This document shows positions 2,654-22,798 of a stretch of DNA of 64,000 nucleotides, piece after piece. The notes below the pieces were generated by a model that made no database searches, was not told the DNA's origin, and saw nothing but the letters and a program-made list of their open reading frames with translations. Position 1 is the first letter of the stretch, and each line of letters begins with the position of its first letter. Both the position numbers and the translations under genes were made by a program. Source of the stretch: Symbiobacterium thermophilum IAM 14863. GTDB taxonomy: Bacteria; Bacillota; Sulfobacillia; Symbiobacteriales; Symbiobacteriaceae. The DNA lies in assembly GCF_000009905.1 (NCBI RefSeq), contig NC_006177.1, forward strand, positions 3,110,595 to 3,174,594, given 5' to 3'.

Positions 2654-3274
2654 ATGGTGGACGCACTGTCCGGAATTCTGACCCGTCAGCCGTTCTGGGA
2701 GGCCATCCGGAAGGCACTGACTGAAGAGGAGACCGTGTCCCTGGCGTCGCTGGATCTGGACGGGTTCGAGGAAATCAACGCGCAGGCCGGGCGGGAGACC
2801 GGCGACAAGCTCATCGCCCTGCTGGGCGGGATGCTGCGGGAGCGGGCCGACAGCCTGGGCTGGACGGTGGGCCGCATCGGCGGCGACGAGTTCGCCATCC
2901 TCATGCCGGGCACCGGCCTGGAGAAGGCCTTCCTGCAGATGGAGACCCTGCGCGCCGACTTCGCCGCCAGCGCAGCGCAGGCCTACCCGGAGCTGAACCC
3001 GACGATCAGCATCGGCGTGGCCAACTTCCCCCGGGATGCGAAGGATCTGGGCGGTCTCACGCAACAGGCGGGCCAGGCCCTGTACCAGGCCAAGGAGGCC
3101 GGGCGGAACAGCGTCGCGCTGCCGTCCCGGGAGGAGATGGTCCTGCGCTCCTGCTACTACACCACCTCCCAGGTGGCCCGCCTGAAGAAGCTGGCCGAGC
3201 AGCTGAAGAAGAAGGAGTCGGTCCTGCTCAGGGAGGCCCTGGACGACCTCCTGCGCAAGTACGACGTCCGGTAG
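2654..3274 (+). CDS. GGDEF diguanylate cyclase with C-terminal ribbon-helix-helix-like tail
   Basis: The 206-residue product has a GGDEF domain at about residues 12-158: LDLDGF at 33-38 for metal and GTP binding, and intact RIGGDEF at 74-80. GGDEF enzymes join two GTP into the second messenger c-di-GMP. The inhibitory RxxD I-site is absent (SLGW occupies the position), so product feedback is not expected. There is no sensor domain or membrane segment. Residues 163-206 (beta strand SCYYTT, then two helices ending LLREALDDLLRKY) look like a ribbon-helix-helix DNA-binding fold. ATG 2654 was preferred to the in-frame ATG at 2615, which lies in the AT-rich promoter. It is a single gene between terminators. 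Confidence 0.85.
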   Translation: MVDALSGILTRQPFWEAIRKALTEEETVSLASLDLDGFEEINAQAGRETGDKLIALLGGMLRERADSLGWTVGRIGGDEFAILMPGTGLEKAFLQMETLRADFAASAAQAYPELNPTISIGVANFPRDAKDLGGLTQQAGQALYQAKEAGRNSVALPSREEMVLRSCYYTTSQVARLKKLAEQLKKKESVLLREALDDLLRKYDVR

Positions 3275-3306
3275 TCGAGCCGGCACGACCAGAAAAAAGC
3301 GGAGAC

Positions 3307-3332
3307 GCGGGCGCTCCGTGTCCTGCGCCCGC
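3307..3332. terminator. Terminator between convergent genes
   Basis: An 8-bp stem GCGGGCGC/GCGCCCGC has a 10-base loop. Read on the minus strand it is followed by GTCTCCGCTTTTTT, so it should end the arg operon. It may also serve the plus-strand GGDEF gene. Confidence 0.7.
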
Positions 3333-3354
3333 CGTCGTTCTCGGACACAGCCTG

Positions 3355-4563
3355 CTAGGTCCGGTAACTGCCGTTGATCTTCACGTAGTCATACGTCAGG
3401 TCGCAGCCCCAGGCGGTGGCCTCGCATTCGCCGGCGTGCAGGTCGGCGGTGAAGACGACCTCCTTCTCCCGCAGTACCCGGGCCGCGGCCGCCTCGTCAA
3501 AGGCCACCGGCTCGCCGGCGCGCATCATCTGCAGGTCGCCCAGCCACAGGTCCACCCGGCCGGGGTCGAACTGCGCCCCCGAATAGCCCAGGGCCGCCAG
3601 CACGCGGCCCCAGTTGGCGTCCTCGCCGAAGACCGCGGCCTTCACCAGGTTCGACCCGCAGACCGCCCGGGCCGCCTTGCGGGCGTCGGAGAGGGTCGCG
3701 GCCCCCTTCACCCGCACCTCGATCAGCTTGGTCGCGCCCTCGCCGTCCCGGGCGATCTCCTTCGCCAGGTGGATGAGCACCGCCGCCAGCGCGTCGGCGA
3801 ACGCCCGGTAGTGGGCGGAGCCCGGCATGATCCTGGGGTTGCCCGCGAGGCCGTTGGCCAGGACGAGGACCATGTCGTTGGTCGAGGTGTCGCCGTCCAC
3901 CGTGATCATGTTGAAGGAACGGTCCGTGGCCTCCCGGAGGGCCTCCCGCAGGGCGGCCGCGTCCACGGCGGCGTCGGTGGTGACGAACCCCAGCATCGTC
4001 GCCATGTTGGGGTGGATCATGCCGGAGCCCTTGGCCATCGCCCCGATGGTGACCGTCGCCCCGCCGATCTCCAGCCGCGCCGCCGCCTGCTTCGGGAAGG
4101 TGTCGGTGGTCATGATGGCCTCCGCCGCGTCGGCGCCGCCCTCCGGGGAGAGCGCCGCGGCCGCGGCCCTGATGCCCGCCGACACCCGGTCCATCGGCAG
4201 CGGTACGCCGATCACGCCCGTCGAAGCCACACCCATCAGCTCGGGCCGGATGCCCAGGGCCTCCGCGGCCAGCCGGGCCATCTCGGCCGCGTCCCGCATC
4301 CCCTGCTCGCCGGTGCAGGCGTTGGCGTTGCCGGAGTTGGCCACCACGGCCTGCAGCTCACCGGTCTCGGTCCGCCCCCGGGTGAGCACCACCGGCGCCG
4401 CCTTCACCAGGTTGGTGGTGTACACCCCCGCGGCCGCGCAGGGAACCCGGGAGGCGAGCAGGGCCACGTCCTTCTTCCCCGCGCCGTTCCCCTTGATGTC
4501 CGCGCACGCGCCCGCGGCCACGAAACCCGCCGGCGCCGTCACGCCGCCTGCCAGCCACTCCAT
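3355..4563 (-). CDS. argJ: Bifunctional ornithine acetyltransferase/N-acetylglutamate synthase ArgJ
   Basis: ArgJ moves the acetyl group from N-acetylornithine to glutamate, recycling it in arginine synthesis; bifunctional forms also use acetyl-CoA. The 402-residue protein carries the self-cleavage site MATML, where T189 becomes the N-terminal nucleophile of the beta chain. The conserved GSGMIHPN precedes it and TTDTFPK lies at 152-158. Length is normal for the family. It is the last gene of an argC-GNAT-argJ run on the minus strand, eight bases after the acetyltransferase gene. Bifunctional and monofunctional forms cannot be separated by eye, but a second acetyltransferase next door could supply the first acetyl group. 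Confidence 0.95.
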   Translation of the reverse strand: MEWLAGGVTAPAGFVAAGACADIKGNGAGKKDVALLASRVPCAAAGVYTTNLVKAAPVVLTRGRTETGELQAVVANSGNANACTGEQGMRDAAEMARLAAEALGIRPELMGVASTGVIGVPLPMDRVSAGIRAAAAALSPEGGADAAEAIMTTDTFPKQAAARLEIGGATVTIGAMAKGSGMIHPNMATMLGFVTTDAAVDAAALREALREATDRSFNMITVDGDTSTNDMVLVLANGLAGNPRIMPGSAHYRAFADALAAVLIHLAKEIARDGEGATKLIEVRVKGAATLSDARKAARAVCGSNLVKAAVFGEDANWGRVLAALGYSGAQFDPGRVDLWLGDLQMMRAGEPVAFDEAAAARVLREKEVVFTADLHAGECEATAWGCDLTYDYVKINGSYRT

Positions 4564-13915: not shown

Positions 13916-14623
13916 TCAGGCCGTCACCCGGGTGAGCAGCCCGCTCCGGGGTGAGCCTCCCCTGGGGCCCACACCCAGCGTCAGCCGGTTATTGTCCACC
14001 ACGGCCAGGTCGAAGAGCATCCGCAGGTCCCCCTCCACCTCCATCCAGTGGAACCGGTGCCCATGAGGCTTCATGATGCGGTCGCACCTGGGGTACAGCG
14101 CACCCTCCTGGTACAGTTTCAGCCGGAAGAGCCCCTGGGGCGCGGGGCGGATCTCCACCCGCACATCCCCGTCGGGCAGACTTCCGGCGTATGTACCGAC
14201 CCACGCGTAGTTCATCTGGCCCACGTGCCGGTCGGCCAGCACATCGAAGGGCCGTGCAACCGGATCCAGCTCCGGATGAAACGCCATGACCACCAGGACG
14301 TCGGCCTGCCGGTTCAGCCACGGCTCGTTGCAGCTGACGGTCACCGCCTCCCCGGGGCGGATGATCGCCGGGTTGCCGGTGCCCACCAGGCGTGCGTTTT
14401 CGGCCGTGACCGGAAGTCCGGCCGGCACGCTGTAGAACTCGGTGGAGGCCACGACCTCCCGGGAGCCGAGGTTGAGCACGACCGCGCGCGGGCGCCCGTC
14501 GGGTCCCACCGTGATGTCGGGTGAGGCAAAGGGCGCCGCGAGGGGCCGGGCGCCCGAGTCCCCGGGCCGGGACCGCAGCACCAGGAATACGGGCCTGTGG
14601 CTTCTCCTGTCCCTGCGCAGCAC
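13916..14623 (-). CDS. Hypothetical beta-rich protein
   Basis: The product is about 235 residues, rich in beta strands and prolines, with blocks such as VVLNLGSREVVASTEFYSV and NPAIIRPGEAVTVSCNEPWL resembling an immunoglobulin-like or CARDB-type sandwich. There is no signal peptide or membrane helix. The start is uncertain: GTG 14623 follows a run of seven G, while ATG 14638 and longer options also exist. The G-run and the ATG lie inside a strong inverted repeat (14626-14658), so the hairpin may mask translation. It converges with polX. No function can be assigned. Confidence 0.6.
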   Translation of the reverse strand: MLRRDRRSHRPVFLVLRSRPGDSGARPLAAPFASPDITVGPDGRPRAVVLNLGSREVVASTEFYSVPAGLPVTAENARLVGTGNPAIIRPGEAVTVSCNEPWLNRQADVLVVMAFHPELDPVARPFDVLADRHVGQMNYAWVGTYAGSLPDGDVRVEIRPAPQGLFRLKLYQEGALYPRCDRIMKPHGHRFHWMEVEGDLRMLFDLAVVDNNRLTLGVGPRGGSPRSGLLTRVTA

Positions 14624-14625
14624 AC

Positions 14626-14658
14626 AAATCCCCCCCATTCGCAACGTGGGGGGGATTT
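14626..14658. repeat. Perfect 12-bp inverted repeat over a translation start
   Basis: AAATCCCCCCCA and its exact complement flank nine bases (TTCGCAACG). On the minus strand the second arm holds the G-rich ribosome site and the ATG of the hypothetical gene. No T-tract follows on either strand, so it is not an ordinary terminator; a translational control hairpin is the likeliest role. Confidence 0.6.
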
Positions 14659-14816
14659 CACCAGGATCAGGTGTGCACCCTTTTCCCTTACAGATTATTC
14701 GCAAATCATCACAACCGCCGGGGATTTGTCGAACGGCTGCCCCGGGCACCGTTCCGGGCGTCGGGCGTCCAGTCGCGCGTCTCCGGCGTCCGCCCCGCGC
14801 TTCGAGCGCCCCTCCG

Positions 14817-15332
14817 TCAGCGGACCCTTACCCCGCGCTTCTGCACGTCGGCAAGCCTGCGGGCCGGAACCCACTCCCCCGGCGCGGCGCGCACGGGCGG
14901 GGGCGCGGGCGCGGGCACTTCACGGCCCGCACCGGCGAAGAGCAGGACAATGGCGGCGGCGGAGGCCCAGAGCCAGGGTACGACGACCTGGCCGAGTCCC
15001 GGCCGGTACCGCTCCAGCAGCGCAGCCACCGGCAGGAAGGTGCCCTGCCAGAGGGAGTAGATCCAGTCCGGCGCCCAGAAGGGCAGAAGCAGCAGGCCGG
15101 GGATCTGCGACATCACGGCCGTCCACGCTGCCGCGGCCGTGCGGTAGCGGCGGGTGCGCCGCTCGGCCTCCTCCCGGAAGACGACGCCCAGCCGCCAGGC
15201 GAACCAGAGCAGGACCAGGGCCGGGATGAGCCCGATCCAGGGCCAGCGGCCGGCCAGGAACCACCCCAGGCCGCCCAGCAGAAGCTGTCCGAGGAGCAGC
15301 AGGAACGCCGTCTGAAGCCGCAACTGCAGCAT
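14817..15332 (-). CDS. Hypothetical four-helix membrane protein
   Basis: The 171-residue protein has about four transmembrane helices (LQTAFLLLLGQLLLGGLGWF, WIGLIPALVLLWFAWRLGVV, AVMSQIPGLLLLPFWA, LWASAAAIVLLFAGAG), a basic cytoplasmic loop (EEAERRTRRYRT), and a proline-rich hydrophilic tail. The start ATG 15332 was chosen over the GTG three codons earlier because GAGGTGA lies six bases before it. No family was recognised. Its neighbours are a beta-rich unknown and an ECF sigma factor fusion; a shared role is not evident. Confidence 0.7.
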   Translation of the reverse strand: MLQLRLQTAFLLLLGQLLLGGLGWFLAGRWPWIGLIPALVLLWFAWRLGVVFREEAERRTRRYRTAAAAWTAVMSQIPGLLLLPFWAPDWIYSLWQGTFLPVAALLERYRPGLGQVVVPWLWASAAAIVLLFAGAGREVPAPAPPPVRAAPGEWVPARRLADVQKRGVRVR

Positions 15333-15456
15333 GGTGATCACCTCAGGGGGATTTCACCTGTACAGTACGCGTCCGGACGGCGATTTTCCTGCATGTGGAT
15401 TGTCAAGATATGAAACTGGGGAGGCGGCCTCCATCCGCCCCACCCCACGGAACCCC

Positions 15457-16944
15457 CTAACCCGGCAGGTCGAAGACCCAGGGACCGTCCACCAGCACCC
15501 CCGCCTTGGTGGCCCGCACGGCCACCGGCTCCAACCCTTCCGGCAGTTCGGTCTCGTAGCGCTGGTAGCGCACCCCATCATGGGTGTAGTTGGAAAACCC
15601 TGCCCACGAACCGCCCAGCGGGTACACGTTTCCCTCGCCGTCGATCACCTCGAACCCGCTGACCCCGACGAAACCTTCCCTTACAGGGCTCGTCCAGCTG
15701 AGCTCGATGGCGCCCGGTCGCCGCTCGATCCCCGCCAGGGTGACCGGCACGCCCACCACCTCGGCCACGGCCCCTTCCTCCAGGGGCCAGACCGCGTCCA
15801 ACGGCTCTGCCTTGACCGCCGGCTTCAGCACCAGCCGGGCCGGCCCCCTCACAGGGGGAAAGGCCAGGTACGACACAGAGTTGAGCCCTCCACCTGATCC
15901 CGATTGGCGGTAACGCTGTCCGCCCGCCTCCAGGTAGTTGCAGTGGACGTCCCCGTCCCACTGCACCGGGAAGTCAAAGCTTTCGGTCACCTCTTCCCGG
16001 TAGCGCACGATGGTCTCGGCCGGCGTGTAGATCACCGCCTCCACCGTGATCCGCACCCCGTCGTACTCCAGGGCCCGGTTGACGGCCACCTCCCGGGAGA
16101 ACCGGTCGGTCTCGGTGCGGGAGGCAGGCACGGTCAGGGTGATGGTTTCCGCGCCCACGTCGAACCGGACCTCCAACTCGGCTGCCTCCGCCTCCAGCGG
16201 AAGGGTGGAGACGGTGCCGAGGTAGCCCAACGGCGTCTCCTCCGGCGGAGTGAACTCGCTCATCTGGGCCGTGATGGTGGCATGCACGGGCACGCGGGGC
16301 TGACGCCCCCGCCCCACCGTGGACGGCGCTCCCAGCACCTGATAGAGCACCGTGGTGCGCCGGGCGTCGGCCACCACGCCGAGGATGCGCACGGTGATGC
16401 CGTTCTGGGTGACCTCGGCGACGGGCTCCCCGATCAGCCCCATGTCATAGGCCCACTGCAGCCCGGCACCTGCCAGGATGAACCGCGTGATGACAGGACC
16501 CACCAGCGGCAGGGCCTTGCCCAGCCGGGACTTGACCGTGCCCAGCGGGATGCCCAGCGCCTCGGCGATCTCTTGCTGGGACATGTCCAGCATGTAGCGC
16601 AGCACCACCACCGGGCGCAGGTGGTCGCCGAGGCGTGCCACCATCTCCCAGATCGCCGTCGCTTCCGGGTCCGGTCCGGGAACGGTGTCGGGCAGATGGG
16701 CCGCCAGGTCGTCCACGGGAAAGGACCGCCGGCGGCGCTCCAGGATCTGCCGGCACTGCCGGATCAGGATCCGCCGCATCCAGGCCCCGAAGGCCTGCTC
16801 ATCCCGCAGTTGGGCGAACCGGCGGTAGCCGGCCAGGGCCGCCTCCTGCAGGGCGTCCTCTGCGTCGGGCCGGTTCCCCAGCATCGCCAGCGCGATCCGC
16901 TCCAGGTATCCCTGGTGGGCCCGCAACAGCTGGAAGTAGTCCAT
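15457..16944 (-). CDS. ECF sigma factor fused to a DUF4179-like anti-sigma extracellular domain
   Basis: Residues 1-145 form an ECF (group 4) sigma factor: region 2 contains DAEDALQEAALAGYRRF, region 4 the helix-turn-helix MSQQEIAEALGIPLGTVKSR. The remaining 350 residues are beta-rich and begin PLVGPVITRF...GLQWAYDMGLIG...NGITVRILGVV, the pattern seen at the start of the DUF4179-type outer domain of membrane anti-sigma factors. The zinc-finger and membrane helix that normally stand between are missing, and no other convincing transmembrane segment is seen. The frame is unbroken. ATG 16944 follows GAGAGGA. The protein is probably cytoplasmic unless the hydrophobic stretch 148-172 inserts. Target genes are unknown. 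Confidence 0.85.
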   Translation of the reverse strand: MDYFQLLRAHQGYLERIALAMLGNRPDAEDALQEAALAGYRRFAQLRDEQAFGAWMRRILIRQCRQILERRRRSFPVDDLAAHLPDTVPGPDPEATAIWEMVARLGDHLRPVVVLRYMLDMSQQEIAEALGIPLGTVKSRLGKALPLVGPVITRFILAGAGLQWAYDMGLIGEPVAEVTQNGITVRILGVVADARRTTVLYQVLGAPSTVGRGRQPRVPVHATITAQMSEFTPPEETPLGYLGTVSTLPLEAEAAELEVRFDVGAETITLTVPASRTETDRFSREVAVNRALEYDGVRITVEAVIYTPAETIVRYREEVTESFDFPVQWDGDVHCNYLEAGGQRYRQSGSGGGLNSVSYLAFPPVRGPARLVLKPAVKAEPLDAVWPLEEGAVAEVVGVPVTLAGIERRPGAIELSWTSPVREGFVGVSGFEVIDGEGNVYPLGGSWAGFSNYTHDGVRYQRYETELPEGLEPVAVRATKAGVLVDGPWVFDLPG

Positions 16945-17015
16945 GGCGCCGTCCTCTCGGTGTGTGTTCTCACTCAGATAGAGGGGAAGAAGGGCCCGTT
17001 CGCGGCCAGCGCAAA

Positions 17016-17040
17016 GCCCCCGCGCCGCCGGCACGGGGGC
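17016..17040 (-). terminator. Terminator of the moeA-moaA-moaC operon
   Basis: On the minus strand GCCCCCG...CGGGGGC (7-bp stem, GC-rich 11-base loop) is followed by TTTGCG. It lies 25 bases after the moaC stop. Confidence 0.6.
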
Positions 17041-17064
17041 CTCTTGACATATGCGCGTCGTGGG

Positions 17065-22096: not shown

Positions 22097-22256
22097 GCAA
22101 GCTTGGCCCCCTTCCGACATATGTTTAGCTGACCAGGGACAGACTACGTGTTTTCAGGGGTCTGGATGCAGGTGCGCCCCCGGCGGACCAGCGTCCCCAC
22201 TGCACCAGCGCCACGGCGCCGGTCTGTGGCTCGTACGGGCCGGGCAGGCGTACTCG

Positions 22257-22798
22257 GAGCGCACGGCGTGGGCGTGCGCAGTTGTGCACCGTGTGCAAGT
22301 CCAGATGCATACTTGGGGCGCACGGCGTTGGGAGTGCGCAGATGGACCCCGTGCGTGGGTCCGTGTGCGTACCCGGGGTGCACGGCGTTGGGCGTGCGCA
22401 GTTGTTCCCGTGTGCGAGTCCGTATGCGTGCTCGGGGCGCACGGCGTTGTGCGTGCGAAGATGGCCCCGCGCGCGGGCCGTGTGCGTGCCCGGGGCGCAC
22501 GGCGTTGGGCGTGCGCAGTTGTTCCCGTGTGCGAGTCCGTATGCGTGCTCGGGGCGCACGGCGTTGTGCGTGCGAAGATGGCCCCGCGCGCGGGCCGTGT
22601 GCGTGCCCGGGGCGCACGGCGTTGGGCGTTCGCAGCTGTTCCCGTGTGCGAGTCCGTATGCGTGCCCGGGGCGCACGGCGTTGGGCGTTCGCAGCTGTTC
22701 CCGTGTGCGAGTCCGTATGCGTGCTCGGGGCGCACGGCGTTGGACGGGCGAGGTGTGCGCCATGCGAGTCCGTGCGCCCGGTGCGGACCCCCTCATGC
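22257..22798. repeat. Tandem array of nine 58-60 bp repeats with hairpin core
   Basis: Units start at about 22258, 22317, 22377, 22436, 22494, 22553, 22611, 22670 and 22729, each with GCGCACGGCGTTG. Two types alternate: a 59-base unit with AGTTGTTCCCGTGTGCGAGT and a 58-base unit with AAGATGGCCCCGCGCG. The 117-base pair at 22377-22493 is repeated almost exactly at 22494-22610. Several units contain GCGCACG-N8-CGTGCGC, a perfect hairpin. All frames stay open because of base composition, and no convincing gene is present. It is not CRISPR, as there are no unique spacers. The stretch 22100-22256 shows no other feature. Confidence 0.85.

Follow-up and report, generated by a model that had tools for sequence, protein, structure and literature searches.

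An ECF sigma factor gene joined in frame to the end of its anti-sigma factor gene in Symbiobacterium thermophilum

Domain organization of the fusion protein

The window, a 64,000-nucleotide stretch of the Symbiobacterium thermophilum IAM 14863 genome, contains a gene whose single reading frame begins as an ECF sigma factor and continues as the outer domain of an anti-sigma factor. The locus raises the question of how the two came to form one chain and what became of the control of the sigma factor. The frame runs on the minus strand from the ATG at 16944 to the stop at 15457 without an internal stop in its 495 codons, and the GC3 is 0.86–0.92 in both the sigma half and the tail. The frame and the codon use are thus intact, as had been stated in the original prediction. 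The genome is finished and consists of one contig of 3,566,135 bp.

Regions 2 and 4 of the sigma half are recognized by Pfam (Table 1), and its match to the general ECF superfamily profile TIGR02937 of NCBIfam reaches 65.1 bits against a cut-off of 42.9; the highest non-qualifying score is that of the SigE subfamily. With regions 2 and 4 only, the sigma half has the composition of an ECF sigma factor. Both regions had been described as complete. This holds for region 2 and for the helix-turn-helix of region 4, but not for the C-terminal end of region 4, where the last 15 residues of the sigma factor are absent.

The assignment of the tail is less direct. The DUF4179 match covers only the last third of the domain (profile positions 66–92 of 94), and this match as well as the DUF5643 match lies below the curated Pfam cut-off. 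These weak scores are not decisive, because residues 146–493 align with the orthologous two-gene locus at about 58% identity and the anti-sigma factor of that locus passes the DUF4179 cut-off with 51.1 bits, the match being full-length in the relatives. The profile search that had been suggested for the tail returned both expected families at subthreshold scores, and it is the orthologues, to which the tail corresponds along its length, that identify it as a DUF5643-type outer domain. This bears out the proposed in-frame fusion of an ECF sigma factor with such a domain. Pfam gave no zf-HC2 match in the fusion protein and no SnoaL, TPR or Cys-rich extension; the entire protein contains two cysteines. 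No mention of DUF5643 was found in the literature searched.

Structure prediction is consistent with this assignment. The two AlphaFold models are of low quality (mean pLDDT 56, built from three sequences, and 46) because only two to three sequences were usable, and they permit no conclusion on the packing of the tail against the sigma half. When the whole model was searched with Foldseek, the best match, and the sole one under an E-value of 1e-3, was 3FBQ (E 4.4e-5), the outer domain of the Bacillus anthracis DUF4179 anti-sigma factor BAS1627 (PMC6066255). The TM-scores of this match are low (0.15 and 0.24), so it supports the identity of the tail without proving it. VIA-align returned many tied beta-sandwich matches and was uninformative.

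Table 1. Features of the fusion gene and its upstream region (window coordinates)
Feature	Residues	Position	Strand	Remarks
Promoter-like motif CGCGAACGG-N12-CTCTAT		16978..17004	-	conserved motif; N16 in relatives
G+C-rich hairpin		17013..17043	-	14 pairs; between moaC-like gene and fusion gene
Fusion CDS, ECF sigma factor + anti-sigma extracytoplasmic part	495 aa	15457..16944	-	
Sigma-70 region 2	6–73	16726..16929	-	Pfam PF04542, 7e-10, over cut-off
Sigma-70 region 4	97–145	16510..16656	-	Pfam PF08281 (Sigma70_r4_2), 7e-12, over cut-off
Fusion junction, KAL/PLVG	145/146	16504..16516	-	within CTG-NCN-CTG short repeat
Former juxtamembrane segment, PLVGPVITRFILAGAGLQWAYD	146–167	16444..16509	-	less charged than in all orthologues
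DUF4179 remnant	177–203	16336..16416	-	Pfam 2e-5, below curated cut-off
DUF5643 match	284–375	15820..16095	-	Pfam 1.5e-6, below curated cut-off
Best-predicted part of tail, beta strands	381–480	15505..15804	-	pLDDT about 90 over most

Origin of the fusion

In relatives, the sigma factor and the anti-sigma factor are encoded by two separate genes at the syntenic place, as the original prediction had asked to be checked. The sigma factor of the closest relative, G002 (locus L032), is 93% identical to the sigma half of the fusion. It ends in GKALALLREMEEAERRAAR followed by the stop codon, and a 460-aa anti-sigma gene begins within the overlapping ATGA. Two genes are also present in G001 and G004, which belong to the same genus or family, and in G017 and G027 from the same class. 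In L032, which comes from a metagenome-assembled genome of the same genus, the gene order is the same: moaA and moaC lie upstream of the sigma and anti-sigma genes, and genes for a small membrane protein and for a conserved protein follow downstream. Because this flanking order is shared, the fusion locus is regarded as the two-gene locus of the relatives. The two downstream genes (window 13916–15341, minus strand), which accompany the locus in G001, G002 and G003, gave no Pfam or NCBIfam match above cut-off. Farther away in the window, the molybdopterin gene cluster and a transporter-like gene are separated by a repeat array (22248–22750) in which a 59-bp unit occurs about 8.5 times (117-bp higher-order unit, 89% matches).

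Alignment with the nearest relative (L040, positions 3135–3400) places an absence of 266 bp between the sigma codons for KAL and the anti-sigma codons for PLVG. The missing piece is flanked by short, imperfect, CTG-rich repeats, which agree at 12–13 of 18 bases in two within-genus comparisons. The two genes lie in different frames, and a loss of 266 bp is of a length that brings them into one frame. Counted on the nearest relative, the last 15 residues of the sigma factor and the first 74 residues of the anti-sigma factor have been lost. Except in a paralogue, the genome contains no copy of the missing piece. These comparisons indicate that a single deletion has joined the sigma gene to the downstream anti-sigma gene, in agreement with the mechanism initially suggested.

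The deleted part of the anti-sigma factor comprises a probable helix-4 remnant of the sigma-binding domain, then the original transmembrane helix, then small residues beyond it. The prediction that the membrane part is missing was correct for the original helix. The stretch DFEHRLSQGLKRWAQAG of the relatives aligns with the segment that directly follows the zinc finger in the fusion genome's own paralogous anti-sigma factor (L039) and probably corresponds to helix 4, which in class I anti-sigma factors contacts sigma2 (PMC7406223). In RsiV, the portion of DUF4179 next to the outer side of the membrane contains the signal-peptidase site and shielding helices (PMC6066255), and the corresponding segment has also been removed. 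Nothing is therefore left of the sigma-binding and anchoring machinery that the anti-sigma factor still had before the deletion. The zinc-binding domain, in contrast to what had been assumed, was not taken by the deletion, because the two-gene orthologues already lack a zinc finger; its loss in the fusion event is thereby ruled out.

Erosion of the anti-sigma factor and rarity of the fusion

Zinc fingers are present in the anti-sigma factors of G017, G027 and the paralogue and absent from those of G001–G004. The anti-sigma factor of G001 (L034, 8950–9633) has a diverged post-membrane segment and ends after 228 aa without the DUF5643 half, next to an intact sigma gene. In G003, a genome that is 77% complete, the anti-sigma factor (L036, 1033–2729) still has its outer domain and membrane anchor, but its cytoplasmic part has shrunk to about 20 residues. 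No adjacent sigma gene was found; the divergent gene next to it appears from its sequence to encode a TIR-domain protein. The fusion adds a further state to this stepwise erosion.

When the fusion protein was compared with 60 other genomes, none of the matches listed spanned both halves. Within the class (154 genomes, 16 with DUF4179 matches), no fusion of a sigma factor to DUF4179 was seen among the matches read. A phylum sample of 398 genomes contained 103 with DUF4179. Twenty regions were read, 19 from the phylum sample and one from the class, most of them selected because their frames were long or lacked the membrane part. Two fusions were found among them, both in one Bacillota genome, G533 (L063, 895–2982, and L064, 935–3145, both on the minus strand). 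Further fusions may exist, since only part of the DUF4179 matches was read. The long frames of G139 and G143 were rejected as sigma fusions, as they read like penicillin-binding proteins, judging by the sequence from G139.

Comparison with known systems

Fusions of ECF sigma factors to full anti-sigma factors are known in ECF48, ECF52, ECF53 and IutY of ECF243 (PMC8999054). As in the protein described here, the anti-sigma factor is joined to the C-terminus of the sigma factor. These proteins, however, keep the transmembrane helices and, between the sigma factor and the membrane, a sigma-binding domain (zinc-binding in ECF48, ECF52 and ECF53), whereas the present fusion has the outer domain only. 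The two proteins of G533 likewise carry sigma region 4, DUF4179 and DUF5643 in one chain. They differ in having a complete DUF4179 with the membrane part and in that their region 2 is missed by Pfam; L063 also contains a weak zinc-finger-like stretch (E 0.096), unlike the fusion.

Among the DUF4179 anti-sigma factors, the tail resembles the outer domain of B. anthracis BAS1627 (3FBQ), which is of the DUF5643 type, while the outer domain of Bacillus subtilis RsiV is unrelated to this type. The segment that follows the membrane in RsiV and BAS1627 is retained in the fusion, but the cytoplasmic sigma-binding domain, the original transmembrane helix and the normal cleavage region are not. ECF41, ECF42 and CorE-type sigma factors share with the fusion a long C-terminal extension and the lack of an anti-sigma partner (PMC8999054); their extensions are of the SnoaL, TPR or Cys-rich kind, whereas here the extension is the outer domain of an anti-sigma factor. 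The protein is a variant of the fused sigma/anti-sigma proteins, most likely arisen as the accident of one lineage, and does not look like a new kind of system.

Upstream region and selection

The motif CGCGAACGG and the element CTCT(A/T)T are separated by 16 bases in G001, G002 and G004 and by 12 in the fusion genome. The motif may represent the promoter by which this sigma factor regulates its own gene; if so, the spacer shortened by 4 bp should change the promoter strength. A regulon search with the motif gave no matches in the fusion genome; the locus itself was the only place with the correct spacing in G001 and G002, and in G004 three further matches were found. The hairpin upstream of the motif is terminator-like but has no T run, and, given its composition, it folds with an unremarkable energy (z -1.55).

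The dN/dS of the sigma half is 0.085 in the pairwise comparison with G002 and about 0.10–0.13 on its own branch, indicating purifying selection at the sequence level. The tail gives 0.41 pairwise and 0.47–0.50 on its own branch, compared with 0.31–0.33 on the G002 branch. It has accumulated 24 changes of its own; the relative has 20 or 31, depending on whether G004 or G003 serves as the outgroup. The difference in dN of the tail is not significant, its confidence interval spanning zero, and the dN of the sigma half is slightly higher here with G001 as the outgroup (0.031 versus 0.007 in G002) and equal with G004. Neither half is clearly faster-evolving than in the nearest relative. A tail free of selection for a dS of 0.1 would be expected to have acquired about three stops, and for a dS of at least 0.1 the chance of an open frame is at most about 5%. 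Since no stop is seen, either the fusion is young or the tail is still constrained. The branch has a dS of about 0.15–0.35, and the conservation of both halves could predate the fusion on it.

Interpretation of the fusion

We consider the chance about even that a lineage-specific deletion has released the sigma factor from control at the membrane, leaving a tail that is probably inert and cytoplasmic. In this case the sigma half would still bind RNA polymerase and DNA, the brake releasable by cleavage would be lost, and the former outside domain would be carried along in the cytoplasm without its old sensing role. The shorter promoter-like spacing would weaken the original autoregulation, as might be expected of a sigma factor that is active at a low level without any check; we propose that a weaker positive feedback would compensate for the missing brake. 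Against this reading, the anti-sigma factor of the paralogue could act in trans, and the truncation of the final helix in region 4 might reduce the affinity for DNA.

That truncation also counts in favour of a rather unlikely reading, in which the sigma factor is decaying and no longer works as one, the fusion and the shortened spacer being early steps of its loss. A low-confidence model shows the recognition helix running on into foreign sequence, and the locus is unstable in this family, given the truncated anti-sigma factor of G001 and that of G003, beside which no sigma gene was found. Decay is opposed by the absence of stops or frameshifts from all 495 codons, by the small chance of such an open frame in a neutral tail and by the low dN/dS of the sigma half on its own branch. 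That the two genes are still separate in the living strain, the fusion being a clone deletion or an assembly collapse, is highly unlikely. The deletion does fall between short repeats, and one genome of the species was covered by the search; but the genome is finished in a single contig, the missing piece has no second copy except that of the paralogue, and the spacer change and the charge losses at the junction are also specific to this genome.

These charge losses bear on whether the protein has been repurposed as a one-protein sensor, its tail regulating the sigma factor in cis, either in the cytoplasm as in ECF41 or through a new anchor at the junction. We regard this as improbable. Fused, cleavable sigma/anti-sigma proteins are known (PMC8999054), and L063 and L064 may be compared. 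The junction segment reads AGAGLQ where all orthologues keep charges (EDAGLK, KDAGLK and similar), and its Wimley-White octanol sum is -3.15 against +4.7 to +6.6 in the orthologues, whose real transmembrane helices give -1.7 to -5.4. The segment is borderline hydrophobic, and the two scales disagree: on a Hessa-type scale it scores +4.5, compared with 0.5–2.0 for real helices. The segment is no outlier, since other DUF4179 anti-sigma factors are similarly low just outside the membrane (-4.8 and -3.1), and this family-wide control weakens any strong claim of a new transmembrane helix. The sigma-binding element is also gone. It is quite improbable that the former juxtamembrane segment acts as a new weak anchor, with the sigma factor held at the membrane and the old sensor domain outside; were this true, the own tail of the sigma factor would serve as its brake.

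The locus represents a sigma/anti-sigma pair caught after its fusion, with two-gene neighbours still there to compare. In related genomes the anti-sigma factor is found whole with its zinc finger, with helix 4 and the membrane helix only, with its outer end lost, without a sigma gene beside it, and fused to the sigma factor. Some sigma factors with C-terminal extensions seem to derive from ancient fusions with anti-sigma factors (PMC8999054), and this series of states could show how such one-protein sigma factors originate.
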